A stretch of 64,000 nt of DNA from Brevundimonas subvibrioides. Its GTDB lineage: Bacteria; Pseudomonadota; Alphaproteobacteria; Caulobacterales; Caulobacteraceae. How positions within the stretch are numbered: position 1 is the stretch's first letter; the number at the start of each line of letters is the position of its first letter. This document shows, piece after piece, positions 3,484 through 63,864 of this stretch. The position numbers were made by a program, and so were the translations under genes. The stretch is taken from positions 1 through 64,000 of the forward strand of contig NCEB01000001.1 in NCBI GenBank assembly GCA_002280475.1, in the 5' to 3' direction. A model generated the notes under the pieces. That model saw only the letters and a program-made list of their open reading frames with translations. It ran no database searches and was not told where the DNA came from.

Positions 3484-4344
3484 ATGTCCGAAATCTGCGT
3501 TCTGACCCTGTCGTGCGACGACCGGCCCGGCCTGGTGGCGGGTGTCGCCGGCTTCCTGTTCGAGCATGGGGCCAACATCCTGGAGGCGGGTCAGTTCAAC
3601 GACCGCGATTCCGGCCTGTTCTTCATGCGCGTGCTGTTCGAGCTGGACGGCGGCCCGGCCGGCGTCGATACGCTGCGTGACGCCTTCATCCCCATGGCCA
3701 ACGAGAGCAGCATGCGGTGGAGCCTGAGAAACACCGCCGAGCGTCGCCGCGTCCTCATGCTGGTGTCCAAGTTCGACCACTGCCTGGGCGACCTGCTCTA
3801 TCGCAACCGCACCGGTGAGCTACCGATGGAGGTGGTCGGCATCGTCTCGAACCATCCGCGCGATGTGCTGAAGATCTCGCTGATCGGGGACGTGCCGTTC
3901 CACCATCTGCCCGTCACCAAGGAGACAAAGTCGGAGCAGGAGGCGGCCATCAAGCGAATCGTCGAGGAGACGGGCGCCGAACTGGTCGTCCTCGCCCGGT
4001 ATATGCAGGTGCTGTCCGACGACCTGGCGAGTTATCTGTCCGGCCGCTGCATCAACATCCACCACAGCTTCCTGCCCGGGTTCAAGGGCGCGAAACCCTA
4101 TCATCAGGCCCATGCGCGCGGCGTGAAGTCGATCGGGGCCACGGCCCACTACGTCACCGCCGACCTGGATGAGGGACCGATCATCGCCCAGGACGTGGAG
4201 GCCGTCACCCATGCCGACCGACCGGACGATCTGGTGAGGAAGGGCCGCGATATCGAGCGGCGCGTGCTGGCCAGGGCGGTGGCCTTTCACCTGCAGGACC
4301 GGGTGCTGCTGAACGGGTCCAAGACCGTGGTCTTCAGCGACTGA
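3484..4344 (+). CDS. purU: formyltetrahydrofolate deformylase
   Basis: 286 residues. An N-terminal ACT domain ([18 protein letters not shown]) is followed by a formyltransferase-like catalytic domain. The family motif [11 protein letters not shown] with its histidines, the upstream ARYMQVLS and the downstream [16 protein letters not shown] with the catalytic aspartate are all present. Hydrolyses 10-formyl-THF to formate and THF. The stop overlaps the folD start by one base (TGATG), implying translational coupling. In this cluster it would regenerate free THF for the demethylase and release formate, completing methyl oxidation. Confidence 0.95.
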
Positions 4345-6627: not shown

Positions 6628-7281
6628 TCAGACGGCCTTGTTCGGTGCCGGGTCGGCGGCGTGGGCGCGCAGGAACTCGTCCGCCGCCGCCTCGATGTGC
6701 GCCTTCAGTTGGGCGGGCGGGATGGGCGGCAGTCCGAACGATGCCCTCAGATGGGCCTCGCCCTTGACCCCGCCCAGGTAGCGCCAGGCCGCCCCGTCGG
6801 CGTCGCGGACGTGCAGTCGGCCTCTGGCGGTCTCGACCCGCAGCCACTCGGCGAAGCGGTTCTTCAGCGTCAGCACCGCGGTCTCGTAGAACAGCTCCGC
6901 CATGCGCGGCGCGCGCGCGGTCTCGGCCACCAGGACGCGGTTCATCTGCATGGCCTTCTCTCCGGTGACCAGGTCGAGGAAGCGCGTGGCCAATAGGATC
7001 AGGGTCTCGCGGACCGGCTGATCTTCTGCCGGAAAGAAGCTGTCGGGTGACACGGCCCGCTCGCACTCCTGACGCAACACGGCGGCAAACAGCGCATCCT
7101 TGTCGGCGTAGCGGGCATAGATCGTCGCCTTGGACACCCCCGCCTTTTGGGCCACGGCGTCCACGCTGACGGCCTCGTAGCCGTGCTCCATGAACAGGTC
7201 GCCCGCCGCCAGCAGGATGGCCTCGTCCTTGGCCGTGTCGCGCGGGCGGCCTCGGCGGATCGCGGGTTCGGCGAGCGTCAT
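6628..7281 (-). CDS. TetR/AcrR family transcriptional regulator
   Basis: 217 residues. N-terminal helix-turn-helix: RRGRPRD, then a recognition region VDAVAQKAGVSKATIYARY with the typical TIYxxY end, then a divergent ligand domain. Divergent from the ABC/TolC export operon and very probably its repressor. A 19-bp palindrome covers the region just upstream of its start. An in-frame ATG at 7299 lies inside that operator and has no ribosome site, so the ATG at 7281 is preferred. The inducing ligand is unknown. It converges with the aromatic transporter at its 3' end. Confidence 0.9.
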   Translation of the reverse strand: MTLAEPAIRRGRPRDTAKDEAILLAAGDLFMEHGYEAVSVDAVAQKAGVSKATIYARYADKDALFAAVLRQECERAVSPDSFFPAEDQPVRETLILLATRFLDLVTGEKAMQMNRVLVAETARAPRMAELFYETAVLTLKNRFAEWLRVETARGRLHVRDADGAAWRYLGGVKGEAHLRASFGLPPIPPAQLKAHIEAAADEFLRAHAADPAPNKAV

Positions 7282-30207: not shown

Positions 30208-30216
30208 GAGCTTGAT

Positions 30217-30383
30217 CCCTCTCCCACAGGGAGAGGGCTTGAGCGCCCAAGAGCGAAGCGATCGGTTTGCGCGAAAGGGTGAGGGGTTTCCCTGTAACCG
30301 GCTCTCACCGCAACCCCTCACCCTTTCGGTTTGCGGATCGCTATCGCTCTCCGAACCTCAAGCCCTCTCCCTGTGGGAGAGGG
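30217..30383. repeat. long palindromic repeat, family PR-A (gap-pgk spacer)
   Basis: A 167-bp near-palindrome whose outer arms are 27-bp perfect inverted repeats beginning CCCTCTCCCACAGGG at both ends. Inner blocks (AGCGAAGCGATC, GCGAAAGGGTGAGGGG) are also partly complementary. Related sequence occurs at 49396-49575 and 50864-50972. In RNA it would fold into one long hairpin between gap and pgk. Confidence 0.85.
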
Positions 30384-30391
30384 AGCCGGAG

Positions 30392-45040: not shown

Positions 45041-45049
45041 TCGTTTTTC

Positions 45050-45181
45050 TCCCTCCCCTTCATGGGGAGGGGCGGCGAAGCGCAGCGGAGCCCGGGTGGG
45101 GCCGTCCGTGCGAACTCGCTATCCATCCCCACCCGCGCTCGCCAAGGCTCGCGGTCCCTCCCCATGAAGGGGAGGGAGAGG
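45050..45181. repeat. palindromic repeat, family PR-B (g12-g13 spacer)
   Basis: About 132 bp. Outer perfect inverted arms CTCCCTCCCCTTCATGG / CCATGAAGGGGAGGGAG, inner CGAAGCGCAGCGGAGCCCGGG block shared with the other PR-B copies. It spaces two GTA tail genes that elsewhere overlap or abut. Confidence 0.85.
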
Positions 45182-49395: not shown

Positions 49396-49575
49396 GCCCC
49401 TCTCCCCTTGCGGGAGAGGGAGGCCGCGCACGGCGGCGCAGCCGTCGTCCTGGCGCGGGCGGGTGAGGGGTGACACTCGGTCTGTCCTTTCGGACGCAAG
49501 ACCCCTCACCCTTTCGCGCAAGACCGATCGCTTCGCTCTCGGGCGCTCAAGCCCTCTCCCTCAAGGGGAGAGGGA
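49396..49575. repeat. palindromic repeat, family PR-A (capsid-connector spacer)
   Basis: About 180 bp between g5 and g6. Outer CCCTCTCCCC / GGGGAGAGGG arms with inner GGTGAGGGGTG and ACCCCTCACCCTTTCGCGCAAGACCGATCGCTTCGC cut from the same consensus as the gap-pgk element at 30217. May attenuate downstream transcription. Confidence 0.8.
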
Positions 49576-52209: not shown

Positions 52210-52784
52210 ACCGGCCGGAACCGCGCCCCCGGCAGCATCGGAAACGTCACCAGCGACACCTCCCACAGATCCACGCCCGACAACACCCGCAAGCGACCGT
52301 CTCGCCGCGCCTTCGCTGTCCTGAACCCGATCGACAGCCCGTCCAGCGCCCCGGCCCGGCTCAGCGCCTGGGCATAGCGCGCCTCGGCCGACCAGTCGGC
52401 GATCCGTCCCCGGACGAACAGGCCCCGCTCGTCCTCGATCACCTCGTCCCAGACCCCGACCACCGCGCGGCTCTCGTGCTGATGCAGCATCCGCACCCCG
52501 CGCGCGCCCGTCCGCCTCAGGCTGTCGGCGAAGGCCCCCTTGGCCACCACGTCCCCGTTCAGATCCGCCACGCCCCACAGCGAGGCATAGCCCTGGATCA
52601 AGAGCGCACCCTCGCTCTCCCTCCCCCTCGGGGGAGGGTGGTCGGAGTGAAACGGAGACCGGGTGGGGGCGGCCAGGCGATCCGCACTCTCGCCTGCCTT
52701 GGTTTGCCTTGCCGTCCCCACCCGGTCGCTTCGCGACCTGCCCTCCCCCGAGGGGGAGGGAGAACACGCCTCTCTGCCCCTCAC
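52206..52784 (-). CDS. GTA prohead protease (g4) with in-frame palindromic N-terminal insert
   Basis: 192 residues if started at GTG 52784, which overlaps the g3.5 stop by 4 bases (GTGA), the same coupling used throughout this cluster. HK97-type protease core begins at LIQGYASLWGVADLNGDVVAKGAF, then RMLHQHESRAVVGVWDEVIEDERGLFVRG with the catalytic His, and LDGLSIGFRTAKARRDG with the Ser. Residues ~8-56 are encoded by a complete PR-B repeat, free of stops. An alternative TTG start at 52601 would exclude the insert. Cuts scaffold/delta domains during capsid maturation. Confidence 0.88.
   Translation of the reverse strand: MRGREACSPSPSGEGRSRSDRVGTARQTKAGESADRLAAPTRSPFHSDHPPPRGRESEGALLIQGYASLWGVADLNGDVVAKGAFADSLRRTGARGVRMLHQHESRAVVGVWDEVIEDERGLFVRGRIADWSAEARYAQALSRAGALDGLSIGFRTAKARRDGRLRVLSGVDLWEVSLVTFPMLPGARFRPV
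52617..52763. repeat. palindromic repeat, family PR-B, open in the protease frame
   Basis: 147 bp (49 codons). Outer arms CTCCCTCCCCCTCGGGGGAG cut and its complement at the far end; inner CCGGGTGGGGGCGG / CCGTCCCCACCCGG. Lies between the coupled GTG start and the recognisable protease domain, with no stop in that frame. Confidence 0.85.
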
Positions 52785-60792: not shown

Positions 60793-61245
60793 TCACACGC
60801 CCCGTTCCTCGACCCAGTCCGACGCCTCGAAGTCCAGCGCGTCCTCCGGCTCGGCCAGGGTCTCCTCCGACACCGTCAGTCCCCGGATCGAAACTCCCGC
60901 CGTGTGGACGGTCTCGGGGTCGCCCGACACCAGCGGATGCCAGTCCGCCAGCCCCCGCCCCTCGTCCAGCCGGCGATAGGCGCACGACAGCGGCATCCAC
61001 TTCAGCGTCTCGATGTTCCAGGGCGTCAGCTGGATGCAATCAGGAACATGTTCGATGCGGTTCTCATAGTCGGTGCAGCGGCACAGCCCGCCGTCGAACA
61101 GCTTGCAGTGGACCTTGGTCGGCACGACCTCGCCGGTGTCCTCGTCCTCGAACCGGATCAGGCAGCACAGCCCGCACCCGTCGCACAGGCTCTCCCACTC
61201 CTCGCGGGTCATCTCCTCCAGACGCTTGGTCTGCCAGAACGCCAT
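60793..61245 (-). CDS. YcgN-family cysteine cluster protein (UPF0260)
   Basis: 150 residues from ATG 61245. Characteristic Cys pattern: LCDGCGLCCLIRFED, VHCKLFD, LCRCTDYENR, VPDCIQLTP and MPLSCAYRRL, as in YkgJ/YcgN Fe-S or zinc-binding proteins. Function unknown in the family. The ribosome site GGAGG is supplied by the end of the palindromic repeat that begins 3 bases upstream of the start. Confidence 0.93.
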   Translation of the reverse strand: MAFWQTKRLEEMTREEWESLCDGCGLCCLIRFEDEDTGEVVPTKVHCKLFDGGLCRCTDYENRIEHVPDCIQLTPWNIETLKWMPLSCAYRRLDEGRGLADWHPLVSGDPETVHTAGVSIRGLTVSEETLAEPEDALDFEASDWVEERGV

Positions 61246-61249
61246 CAAT

Positions 61250-61304
61250 CCTCCACCGCGCAGCGGGGGAGGGGGACCGCGCGAAGCGTGGTGGAGGGGG
61301 CGGA
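61250..61304. repeat. palindromic repeat, family PR-C, half element
   Basis: 55 bp: CCTCCACCGCGCAGCGGGGG, AGGGGGACCGCGCGAAGCG and TGGTGGAGGGGGCGGA in order. Its last 41 bases are identical to part of the block after the DUF559 gene. Confidence 0.85.
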
Positions 61305-61323: not shown

Positions 61324-61701
61324 ATGAGAGCGCCGGTCCTTACCCAGAAACGCGCACGAAGTCTCCGCCGCGCGATGACGCCGCCCGAGGCGGCCTTGTG
61401 GGCCTACCTTCGCCAGCGTGTGTCTGGCCGCCCGAACTTCCGCCGCCAACACCCAGTCGGTCCCTACATCCTCGACTTCTTCTGCGCCCCAGCCAAGCTG
61501 GCGATCGAGATCGACGGCCGAGTGCATGAAACCGCCGACAATCCCGAAAAGGACGCACGCCGAACCGCCTGGCTGAACGTCCAAGGCATCGAGGTCGTCC
61601 GCATCCCCGCTACCGAGGTTCTGCATGATGCGGCCGAGGCCGCCGAAGGTGTCCTGCAGATCGCCAGACTTCGCGTTGGCCTTGCTGATCCTCCCTTGTG
61701 A
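61324..61701 (+). CDS. DUF559 endonuclease-like protein
   Basis: 125 residues from ATG 61324. DUF559 (PF04480) pattern: ARSLRRAMTPPEAALWAYLRQR, GRPNFRRQHPVGPYILDFFC, KLAIEIDGRVHE and RTAWLNVQGIEVVRI. The D-x-ExD/E-x-D arrangement (ILDFFC, AIEIDG) matches the PD-(D/E)XK/Vsr-like nuclease fold predicted for the family. It is flanked closely on both sides by PR-C repeats and outer 31-bp inverted repeats. The family has no settled function. Confidence 0.88.
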   Translation: MRAPVLTQKRARSLRRAMTPPEAALWAYLRQRVSGRPNFRRQHPVGPYILDFFCAPAKLAIEIDGRVHETADNPEKDARRTAWLNVQGIEVVRIPATEVLHDAAEAAEGVLQIARLRVGLADPPL

Positions 61702-61878
61702 GCGCAGCGAAACGGGGGAGGGGGACCGCGCGAAGCGTGGTGGAGGGGGCGGACACATCGACTCTGCGTCCTATGGCGCAGATGCTGCTCATCCCCTAGA
61801 TCACAACTGTCTCCGCCCCCTCCACCCCGTCGGCCAAGCGGCCTCCGCGGTCCCCCTCCCCCGCTGCGCGGTGGAGGA
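61690..61878. repeat. palindromic repeat, family PR-C, full element
   Basis: 189 bp. Left half GCAGCGAAACGGGGGAGGGG then CGCGCGAAGCGTGGTGG and AGGGGGCGGA; right half TCCGCCCCCTCCACC, GGTCCCCCTCCCCCGCTGCG and GTGGAGG. Overlaps the last codons of the DUF559 gene and ends 12 bases before the ABC-F start. Confidence 0.85.
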
Positions 61879-61890
61879 TTTAGGTTGTTC

Positions 61891-63864
61891 ATGGCTCCCC
61901 GCTCTTCCGCCCGCCCCCCTCTCGTCGCCCTCAAGGACGTCCGTCTCCAGGACGGTCAGCGTCCTCTGTTCGAGGGCGTCGACCTGGCGATCGAGCCGCG
62001 CACCCGGTCCTGCCTGGTGGGCCGCAACGGCGCGGGCAAGTCGACGCTGATGAAGCTGGTCATGGGCCTGATCGAGGCCGACAGCGGCGACCGCTCGGTC
62101 CAGGCCGGCACCCGCTTCGCCTATGTCCCGCAAGAGCCGCTGATCGTCGGCGAGACCCTGCTCGACTACGCCACCTCGGGCGGTGCCGAGCCCTGGATGG
62201 CCGAGGCCTGGCTGACCACCTTCGGCATGTCCCCCGAGAAATCCGCCAGGGGCCTCAGCGGCGGCGAGATCCGCCGCGCCGCCCTGGCCAAGGCTTTCGC
62301 CGAGGAGCCCGACCTGCTGCTGCTCGACGAGCCGACCAACCACATGGACATCCTGGCCATCGAGCTCCTGGAAAAGGAGATCATCGCCGCCAAGTGCGCC
62401 GCCCTGATCGTCTCCCACGACCGCGCCTTCCTGAACCGCGTGACCCAGTCCTGCCACTGGCTGGAACACCGCCGCGTCCGCACCCTGAACAAGGGCTTCG
62501 ACGCCTTCGACGACTGGGCCGCCAAGGTCCAGGAAGAGGAGGCCGAGAGCCTTCGCCGCCTCAACAAGCGCATCGAGGCCGAGACCTACACCTTCTACCG
62601 CTCCATCACCGCCCAGCGGACCCGCAACGAAGGCCGCGCCCGCGCTCTGGAGGCCATGCGTCAGGATCGGGCGCTCCGGGTCAAGGACATCCCCCGCGAG
62701 ATCCATCTCGGCGTCGATTCCGGCGTCACCTCTGGCAAGCTGGTCGCCGACCTGAAGGGCGTGTCCAAGAGCTTCTTCTCTCCGCCCCCTGGGCGGAGAC
62801 AGGCCGCAGGGCGGCCAGAGGCGGGCGAGTCCTCACCGCATGGGCCCGCCTCTGGCGGCTCCGCCGCCGGTCTCCGCCCAGCGGGCGGAGAGCTGGAGCA
62901 GGGAGAGCGCGTCATCCTGAAGAACTTCACCACCCGCGTCATCCGCGGCGACCGGCTGGCCATCGTCGGCCCAAACGGCGCGGGCAAGACGACGCTCGTC
63001 AAGCTGCTGCTGGGCGAACTGGCCCCCGATGAGGGCACGATCAAGCTCGGCGCCAACCTGGAACCCGTCTACCTCGACCAGTCCCGCGAGGGCCTGAAGT
63101 CCGACATGACCCTGTGGGACGCCCTGACGCCCGGCGGCGGCGACTCCATCCTGGTGCGCGGCCACTCCAAGCACGTCGCCGCCTACGCCAAGGACTTCCT
63201 GTTCCAGGAGGGCCAGCTGCGCCAGCCGATCTCGACCCTGTCGGGCGGGGAGCGCAATCGCCTGCTGATCGCCCGCGCCCTGGCCAAGCCCGCCAACATG
63301 CTGGTGCTGGACGAACCCACCAACGACCTGGACATGGAGACGCTCGACAAGCTGGAGGAGCTGCTGGACGGCTACGACGGCACCTTGATCCTGGTCAGCC
63401 ACGACCGCGACTTCGTCGACCGCCTGGCCACCTCCACCATCGGCATGAACGGGCGCGGCGACATCGTCGAGACCCCCGGCGGCTGGACCGATTTCATCCG
63501 CCAGAACCCGGGGTTTCTGTCGAGGGACGAGGGACGAGGGTCGAGGGTCGAAGGCAAGGCGGCCCCGGTTGCTGCCACTCCGACGCCCTCTCTCGACCCT
63601 CGTCCCTCGACCCCCGGCCCTCAAAAAAAGCTCTCCTTCAAGGACCAGCACCGCCTCAAGGAGCTGGACGCCCTCATCGCCGCCCTGCCCGCCGACATCG
63701 CCGTCCACGAGGCGCGCCTGGCGGACGTGAATTTCTACAGCCGCGACCCCTCCGGCTTCGACGCGACCATGAAGGCGCTGGACGCGGCACGCGCCAAACT
63801 GGACGCCGCCGAGGAGGAGTGGCTGGAACTCGAGGCGAAACGCGAGGCCCTGGTCTCCGGCTGA
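61891..63864 (+). CDS. ABC-F family ATPase (Uup-like) with two in-frame palindromic inserts
   Basis: 657 residues from ATG 61891. Two ABC domains: first with VGRNGAGKSTL, LSGGEIRRAALAKA and LLLDEPTNHMD; linker with the Y/R-rich ABC-F arm (RRLNKRIEAETYTFYRSITAQRTRNEGRA); second with VGPNGAGKTTLVKL, LSGGERNRLLIARA and LVLDEPTNDLD; C-terminal coiled coil (KELDALIAALPADIAVHEARL). Uup-type proteins act on ribosomes or DNA. Residues ~296-334 and ~543-574 are repeat-encoded inserts, one at the linker/second domain boundary and one before the coiled coil. A TTG at 61885 is an alternative start. Confidence 0.93.
   Translation: MAPRSSARPPLVALKDVRLQDGQRPLFEGVDLAIEPRTRSCLVGRNGAGKSTLMKLVMGLIEADSGDRSVQAGTRFAYVPQEPLIVGETLLDYATSGGAEPWMAEAWLTTFGMSPEKSARGLSGGEIRRAALAKAFAEEPDLLLLDEPTNHMDILAIELLEKEIIAAKCAALIVSHDRAFLNRVTQSCHWLEHRRVRTLNKGFDAFDDWAAKVQEEEAESLRRLNKRIEAETYTFYRSITAQRTRNEGRARALEAMRQDRALRVKDIPREIHLGVDSGVTSGKLVADLKGVSKSFFSPPPGRRQAAGRPEAGESSPHGPASGGSAAGLRPAGGELEQGERVILKNFTTRVIRGDRLAIVGPNGAGKTTLVKLLLGELAPDEGTIKLGANLEPVYLDQSREGLKSDMTLWDALTPGGGDSILVRGHSKHVAAYAKDFLFQEGQLRQPISTLSGGERNRLLIARALAKPANMLVLDEPTNDLDMETLDKLEELLDGYDGTLILVSHDRDFVDRLATSTIGMNGRGDIVETPGGWTDFIRQNPGFLSRDEGRGSRVEGKAAPVAATPTPSLDPRPSTPGPQKKLSFKDQHRLKELDALIAALPADIAVHEARLADVNFYSRDPSGFDATMKALDAARAKLDAAEEEWLELEAKREALVSG
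62778..62892. repeat. in-frame nested palindrome inside the ABC-F gene (first insert)
   Basis: 115 bp. Outer 23-bp arms (CTCTCCGCC...GGCGGAGAC type, 62778-62800 and 62870-62892) differ at one position; inner 13-bp arms GCCAGAGGCGGGC / GCCCGCCTCTGGC are perfect. Open in the gene's frame, encoding a Gly/Pro/Ser/Ala-rich stretch. Confidence 0.85.
63519..63611. repeat. in-frame palindrome inside the ABC-F gene (second insert)
   Basis: Left arm built of GAGGGACGAGGGACGAGGGT and TCGAG; right arm CTCGACCCTCGTCCCTCGAC at 63592-63611 is the exact complement of the left motif after removing one 7-bp tandem copy. Encodes RDEGRGSRVEG and TPSLDPRPSTPG. A family distinct from PR-A/B/C. Confidence 0.8.

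Follow-up and report, generated by a model that had tools for sequence, protein, structure and literature searches.

An in-frame palindromic insertion in the uup gene of Brevundimonas subvibrioides belongs to a family of triplex-type repeats that also bracket a DUF559 gene

The DNA analysed here (hereafter the window) is a stretch of 64,000 nucleotides from Brevundimonas subvibrioides (assembly GCA_002280475.1, contig NCEB01000001.1, positions 1 to 64,000 of the forward strand), and the subject of this report is a palindromic element within its uup gene. This gene (61891-63864, forward strand) encodes a Uup-like ABC-F ATPase with two ABC_tran stretches and an ABC_tran_CTD domain; the top NCBIfam model for the product was ABC_ATPase_Uup, with a score under the cut-off of that model, and the closest solved relative was E. 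coli Uup [PDB: 9nlj]. The palindrome (115 bp; 62778-62892) had been described in a first-pass annotation made from the sequence alone, and its coordinates and arms were confirmed: the outer arms are 23 nt long with one mismatch, and the inner arms (62814-62826 and 62844-62856) are 13 nt long and perfect. The inverted repeat extends to 62771-62826 and 62844-62899 (84% complementary), and each outer arm itself folds into a 9-bp stem with a 3-nt loop. When 62768-62902 was folded as single-stranded DNA, z was -7.03, and 0 of 200 dinucleotide shuffles were as stable. Only two places in the window (45047-45180 and 62778-62892) have inverted 23-nt arms that lie within 140 bp and differ at no more than one base. 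As was also annotated, the palindrome lies in frame without a stop codon; the frame is open throughout the 657 amino acids that start at 61891.

The alignment of uup was performed with 105 Brevundimonas genomes (112 genes were found, of which seven were left out), and the length from VADLKGVSK to RGDRLAIVG was measured in each product. This length was 34 residues in 96 of the 105 species, longer in the remaining nine, and 76 residues in the Uup of the window. The difference corresponds to an in-frame insertion of 126 nt (62776-62901, forward strand; site 1), which exceeds the palindrome by 11 nt and falls between Phe295 and Gly338, directly after LVADLKGVSKSF; the in-frame addition had thus been recognised correctly, and its size had been given as about 38 residues instead of 42 codons. 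The first-pass annotation had called for this alignment, with presence of the insert in all close orthologues as the unfavourable outcome. That outcome was not found: the six closest relatives by the gene tree (G050, G037, G054, G061, G060 and G096) are all empty at site 1, so that the insertion, as judged from these sequences, looks recent and lineage-specific. The proposal of a tolerant site held, and this site is unoccupied in most orthologues. The proposed position, between the ABC-F arm and the second ATPase domain, had to be revised. In the alignment with 9nlj the gap lies between chain residues 325 and 332, in the turn that follows the first strand of the second ATPase domain, and not in the spacer between the arm and this domain. 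The inserted peptide is Pro/Gly/Ala-rich and probably unstructured, and its presence may be neutral. An artefact of assembly or contamination might be considered for a draft genome of 75 contigs; however, the open frame is exact to the codon, members of the same repeat family occur in several genes of this genome and of related genomes, and the uup coding flanks align with those of relatives on both sides, which makes such an artefact hardly credible.

Site 1 has been used more than once. The inserts of the other eight carriers are unlike that of the window: a palindrome of GAGTGGC/GAGTGAC repeats in G002, G008, G049, G057 and G109, an element of another repeat family ('c') in G047 and G094, and an insert of no clear family in G003 (those of G003, G094 and G109 were classed from the peptides alone). 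Thus this turn holds inserts of at least three kinds among 9 of the 105 species. A second, unrelated in-frame palindrome of the same gene (GAGGGACGAGGGTCGAGGG type; 63521-63616, with arms 63521-63545 and 63592-63616 that are 92% complementary) occupies site 2, the linker ahead of the C-terminal domain, at which some orthologues have palindromic inserts of several kinds; in G037, a relative of the window genome, a half-unit of the family described below (family 'a') was found there. Perfect inverted repeats whose arms reach 11 nt or more occur at site 1 in 7 genomes and at site 2 in 9 genomes, and in at most 2 in any other ten-residue bin of uup. At site 2, the near-identical relatives G119 and G068 differ by a swap of the whole linker, which has the appearance of recombination or of a recent insertion. 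The strong strand fold of 62768-62902 and the occupation of one turn in nine species by at least three kinds of insert would suit the idea that the insert is kept for a function, either as a 42-residue loop that tunes Uup or as an mRNA hairpin that slows translation before the second ATPase domain folds. Against this idea, 96 of the 105 species, the six nearest relatives included, manage without an insert, the inserted sequences differ, and reuse of the site is also predicted by tolerance alone; we consider it improbable.

The palindrome consists of two inverted half-units of about 52 nt each, at 62778-62829 (left, forward strand) and 62841-62892 (right, reverse strand), and the left one was aligned with 20 others, among them the right one. 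Each half-unit is built of a hairpin A with a pyrimidine arm, a hairpin B, and a third strand that mirrors the purine arm of A; in the left half-unit these are located at 62779-62787/62791-62799, 62802-62807/62811-62816 and 62817-62825 (all on the forward strand), respectively. Hairpin A of family a has the form TCTCCGCCC-3 nt-GGGCGGAGA, hairpin B has six pairs, and the tail is AGAGGCGGG; accordingly, the left half in uup has the purine arm GGGCGGAGA and the mirror third strand AGAGGCGGG. In the 21 aligned half-units all cells of hairpins A and B are paired (315/315), and hairpin B stays paired through double changes (11 cells; reached in 0 of 500 shuffles). Note that the search pattern itself dictated hairpin A, the tail and the outer bases of hairpin B, and constancy at these positions is therefore uninformative; the foot of hairpin A is TCTCC in 21/21 half-units, and CTCCGCCC was fixed by the pattern. 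The short spacer (62830-62840) lies where the family-a units that carry a DUF559 gene have this gene, as seen by comparison with C49:66298-66793 of the same genome (G000).

The order of the third strand was examined in the DUF559 flanks of several families, with the 60 asymmetric elements among 66 and with T allowed for A. The mean match of the third strand to the purine arm was 0.919 in mirror order, 0.785 as a direct copy and 0.785 for a shuffled arm; mirror order was better than direct copy in 46 of the 60, equal in 8 and worse in 6, where related copies were counted separately and are not all independent. Since an antiparallel purine-motif triplex needs mirror order, the half-units can be tied to the intrastrand-triplex motifs described in PMC4666352 (PIT/TMECO). 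The elements at the DUF559 flanks have the antiparallel third strand of these motifs, and the triplex itself is predicted from sequence. In common with PIT/TMECO, as far as described there, are the pyrimidine arm, the purine arm and the purine third strand, the occasional arrangement in close inverted pairs, and the abundance together with a mover that is not known. The published pattern, CCCTCNCCC N3-6 GGGNGAGGG N3 GGGNGAGGG, is not matched by family a, which instead has TCTCCGCCC N3 GGGCGGAGA and a second loop of 17 nt with a hairpin inside; in certain DUF559 flanks elsewhere, its first two parts are present. The PIT/TMECO sequence is nearly symmetric, so that strand order is not visible in it, whereas the asymmetric arms of family a show the mirror order. 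Moreover, the repeats described here have copies within genes and bracket a gene for a nuclease, whereas the motif of E. coli K-12 was reported between genes only (PMC4666352).

The genome search proposed in the first-pass annotation was also performed, and a repeat family was present: in addition to uup, strong partial matches to the element were obtained at five further places of the genome, three of which are in frame in genes and two of which are half-units (C49:66298-66358 and 66710-66793). Of the three genes, one (labelled pdhC) encodes a dehydrogenase E2 with lipoyl, E3-binding and 2-oxoacid_dh domains, one (labelled pdhB) an E1-beta-like protein with a lipoyl domain (lipoyl, Transket_pyr and Transketolase_C), and one (labelled bkdC) another E2, in which two lipoyl domains are present. 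In each of these 2-oxoacid dehydrogenase genes, a lipoyl domain is followed by the linker that holds the insert. The membership of the uup insertion in this family is well supported. The half-unit is open in all six frames. The three dehydrogenase copies and the left half in uup are read in one common frame (SPPPGRRQAA or close), and other frames are read in the right half in uup, in the G037 copy and in the pair of L153 (see below). The pdhB and pdhC copies may share their frame by descent. Of 28 pdhC genes, three (G000, G096 and G121) have a family-a or closely similar element in the linker, as judged by eye. In the bkdC-like linker of L011 (about 4150-4310) and in the pdhB-like and pdhC-like linkers of L010, what look like two different palindromic elements stand side by side. 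In addition, the first residues encoded by an ABC transporter ATPase gene seem to come from the right half-unit at C49:66710-66793 (L009, about 6711-6794), and the start codon of that gene is just ahead of the half-unit.

Matches to the uup element at E 1e-4 were obtained in 5 of 61 genomes of the genus (the query included; that in G056 was marginal). A scan of named genomes for the exact pattern gave 24 stretches, of which 17 are from named Brevundimonas (sp. Leaf363, 11; bacteroides, 4; sp. AAP58, 2), three from a Caulobacteraceae bin, three from other bins, and one from Streptomyces, possibly by chance. Seven of the 24 are gene-less family-a pairs whose half-units start 98-170 nt apart, and two are pairs 450-466 nt apart with DUF559 between; in uup the starts are about 92 nt apart, which fits the gene-less form. 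A complete gene-less pair is in frame at L153 4603-4760 (Caulobacteraceae bin RH-23may17-413), within a helicase-like gene of 879 amino acids (named by eye). The coding-frame score for the 24 copies was noisy; L151 (a bkdC-like gene) and L153 stand out, with coding on both sides. Plasmid and phage collections gave no match to family a, which rules against carriage by either, and Rfam gave just microRNA models far under their gathering scores.

The first-pass annotation had likened the palindrome to the protein-coding palindromic elements of Rickettsia (RPE). The likeness in behaviour stands: both are palindromes of about 100-150 bp that conserved genes carry and translate in frame (PMC2229807, PMC10969869), and family a, like RPE, is absent from most orthologues at the same sites. 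Evidence that the element is itself a Rickettsia element was not obtained; its anatomy is that of paired triplex repeats tied to DUF559, and anatomy, the free-living high-GC host and the nuclease link set it apart from RPE, by description and not by sequence. Nor is the general phenomenon a matter of Rickettsia alone, since intragenic repetitive extragenic palindromes (REPs) are known in several bacteria, in one case at nearly the same position of two recB genes (PMC3733652). With REPs, their bacterial interspersed mosaic elements (BIMEs), REPtrons and REP-associated tyrosine transposases (RAYTs), as outlined in that source, family a shares hairpin repeats, inverted dimers, a gene for a DNA-cutting enzyme, and copies within genes. 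The size, the palindromy and the in-frame position in housekeeping genes would be expected if the uup element were of the RPE type or a GTAG/CGTC REP, but such an identity is very improbable: no GTAG/CGTC tag was present at the stem foot in the 21 aligned half-units, the two-hairpin anatomy with a third strand differs, no Rickettsia was found among the 24 exact-pattern stretches, and the bracketed gene is a Vsr-like DUF559 gene. The Y1 transposase (PF01797) was found in 0 of 7 genomes (the control set was positive in 5 of 14, among them Caulobacter vibrioides), and Y1/RAYT was rejected as the mover. The inverted half-units of the uup element also constitute terminal inverted repeats, as in miniature inverted-repeat transposable elements.

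At C49:66298-66793, two inverted family-a half-units surround a DUF559 gene; the same unit is present in G037 and G050, and a lone half-unit is present at that site in G060. Because of this unit, DUF559 genes were tested in general. For each gene, 230 nt upstream of the domain were locally aligned with the reverse complement of 260 nt downstream, and a score above 31 (the 99th percentile of 1000 random placements) was taken as bracketing; 52 of 71 DUF559 matches from 15 Brevundimonas genomes were used. Matched inverted flanks were found around 47 of the 52, and the control flanks of predicted genes passed in 2 of 191 cases, one of which is itself DUF559. When upstream and downstream flanks of different DUF559 genes were combined, 14.7% of 204 same-genome pairs and 20.1% of 2448 between-genome pairs passed; the two ends of one gene therefore match each other rather than just any repeat. 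When flanks of 260 and 300 nt were used for an additional sample, which included two partial domains, 8 of 8 were bracketed. Among other Pseudomonadota, 27 of 46 DUF559 genes were bracketed, against 20.5% of 2056 mismatched pairs (the sole control there).

One further unit (L212; G000:C60:20939-24250) has identical 53-nt ends and stands at a junction. In 7/7 relatives searched, the sequences to its left and right are found on different contigs or at distant positions (far apart on one contig in G060, G096 and G121), no clean empty site was obtained among these seven, and the junction reflects either recombination at repeats or misassembly. Such separated flanks are what would be predicted if repair or gene conversion between repeat copies, with template switching at hairpins, had placed the uup element and the DUF559 genes were passengers. 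This explanation, which we regard as rather unlikely, also agrees with the lack of a visible target duplication and with repeat and nuclease families that are not matched one to one. Bracketing of 47 of 52 DUF559 genes, as compared with 2 of 191 genes and 14.7% of 204 mismatched pairs, is however hard to reconcile with chance passengers.

A DUF559 gene also lies just upstream of uup in the window (61324-61701, forward strand; PF04480, E 1e-27, domain at 61345-61659). It is flanked on the left by a two-hairpin element of family c (61233-61304, forward strand; inverted match to the right flank, score 75) and on the right by an element at 61821-61895 (reverse strand; inverted flank match), and one additional element of this unit is located at about 61690-61757. 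Upstream of uup, the boundaries vary too strongly from species to species for a target duplication to be read. The structural model of the DUF559 protein (pLDDT 75.8) gave its best fold matches with the endonuclease-like 3hrl (Z 13.4 over 94 residues) and the catalytic domain of the homing endonuclease I-Bth0305I (3r3p_A; Z 12.0 over 96 residues), and Vsr (1cw0_A) was matched with Z 9.3 over 102 residues. According to this model, the protein has a Vsr/homing-endonuclease-like fold and is a predicted nuclease, with I-Bth0305I and Vsr among the closest folds after 3hrl. Unlike free-standing homing endonuclease genes, the DUF559 gene is bracketed by repeats. YcjD of E. coli has been treated as a member of the PD-(D/E)XK nucleases (PMC1189080), and VsrA of Caulobacter crescentus, which likewise has a DUF559 domain, was studied as a Vsr-like repair endonuclease (PMC12907096); the portion of the latter text consulted mentions no link to palindromic repeats, and the repair role is a rival function for DUF559.

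From these data, the uup palindrome is probably a gene-less copy of a mobile unit with inverted triplex-type ends, the full form of which carries DUF559, and was recently inserted in this lineage. The full units would consist of a DUF559 nuclease gene between inverted repeats of the two-hairpin, triplex type, and the uup copy would be a non-autonomous form that arose by loss of the gene. DUF559 may be what moves the repeats: it or a relative would cut or nick the folded repeat or the target and start copying, by which both gene-bearing and gene-less forms would spread. The element would have been inserted into the above-mentioned turn of the second ATPase domain, and selection would keep genic insertions only on tolerant loops in an acceptable frame. 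The uup copy may survive because its length is a multiple of three, the frame used has no stop, the Pro/Gly/Ala-rich peptide is probably unstructured, and the loop is tolerant.

Several observations weigh against this interpretation. At uup, comparison with empty-site relatives by eye revealed no target-site duplication, and the insertion is longer than the palindrome by 11 nt. Matched pairs were lacking around 5 of 52 DUF559 genes of the genus and 19 of 46 outside it, and at ycjD, the DUF559 gene of E. coli K-12, triplex motifs are present on the 3' side only. None of 7 DUF559 genes in G079 (taken as Leaf363; 11 family-a stretches) and none of 3 in G061 (taken as B. bacteroides; 4 family-a stretches) is bracketed by family a. 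Within genomes, repeat similarity did not follow from DUF559 similarity (90 pairs, permutation p = 0.34). The number of hairpin B pairs with double changes was 2, which was reached by 281 of 500 shuffles. The DUF559 model was built from 3 sequences, and two mitoribosome chains matched it with Z 9.5, on a par with Vsr. Instead of mobilisation, the bracketing could have arisen because repeats insert preferentially or because the linked sequences have a common ancestry, and a passenger role of DUF559 is possible. A tight coupling of nuclease and repeat was rejected, as the all-pair rho of 0.33 is confounded by orthologues and the within-genome comparison was negative, and so was a two-sided bracket at ycjD, which is absent. 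At L279 5218-5420 of E. coli K-12, a triplex motif and another near-motif are found at the end of ycjD and 3' of it, separated by an apparent partial repeat of the ycjD 3' end.

Elsewhere in the window, gene-less inverted pairs of other families, judged by eye to be of the triplex type, were found at 30216-30384, 45048-45179, 49398-49574, 52616-52763 and 61707-61869. With respect to predicted genes, four of the five are intergenic and that at 52616-52763 overlaps a predicted frame; the pair at 61707-61869 adjoins the DUF559 gene of the window.

In-frame palindromes (RPE) and intragenic REPs were already known, and the uup insertion alone is a further case of a known phenomenon; the combination of a two-hairpin triplex anatomy and a bracketed nuclease is a new form of it and possibly represents a new class of element. 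In the literature searched, judged mostly by title or abstract and from partial listings, no report was found of DUF559 genes bracketed by triplex-type repeats or of such insertions in Brevundimonas uup. One type of intrastrand-triplex repeat was counted at 3610 copies in 262 proteobacterial genomes, and the copies in E. coli were described as having no transposase or integrase remnants nearby (PMC4666352). We tentatively suggest that triplex-type inverted repeats with a DUF559 nuclease may form a distinct, phylum-wide class of small mobile elements and be the source of the bacterial intrastrand-triplex repeats, with gene-less copies that write linkers and loops into housekeeping proteins. If this is true, DUF559 and its repeats would be the long-missing source of such repeats in bacteria, and the bracketing of 47 of 52 DUF559 genes makes this gene a concrete candidate for their mover. 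The present data extend in-frame palindromic insertion to the free-living, high-GC Caulobacterales, in which a single turn of a single gene has been struck by at least three kinds of insert.

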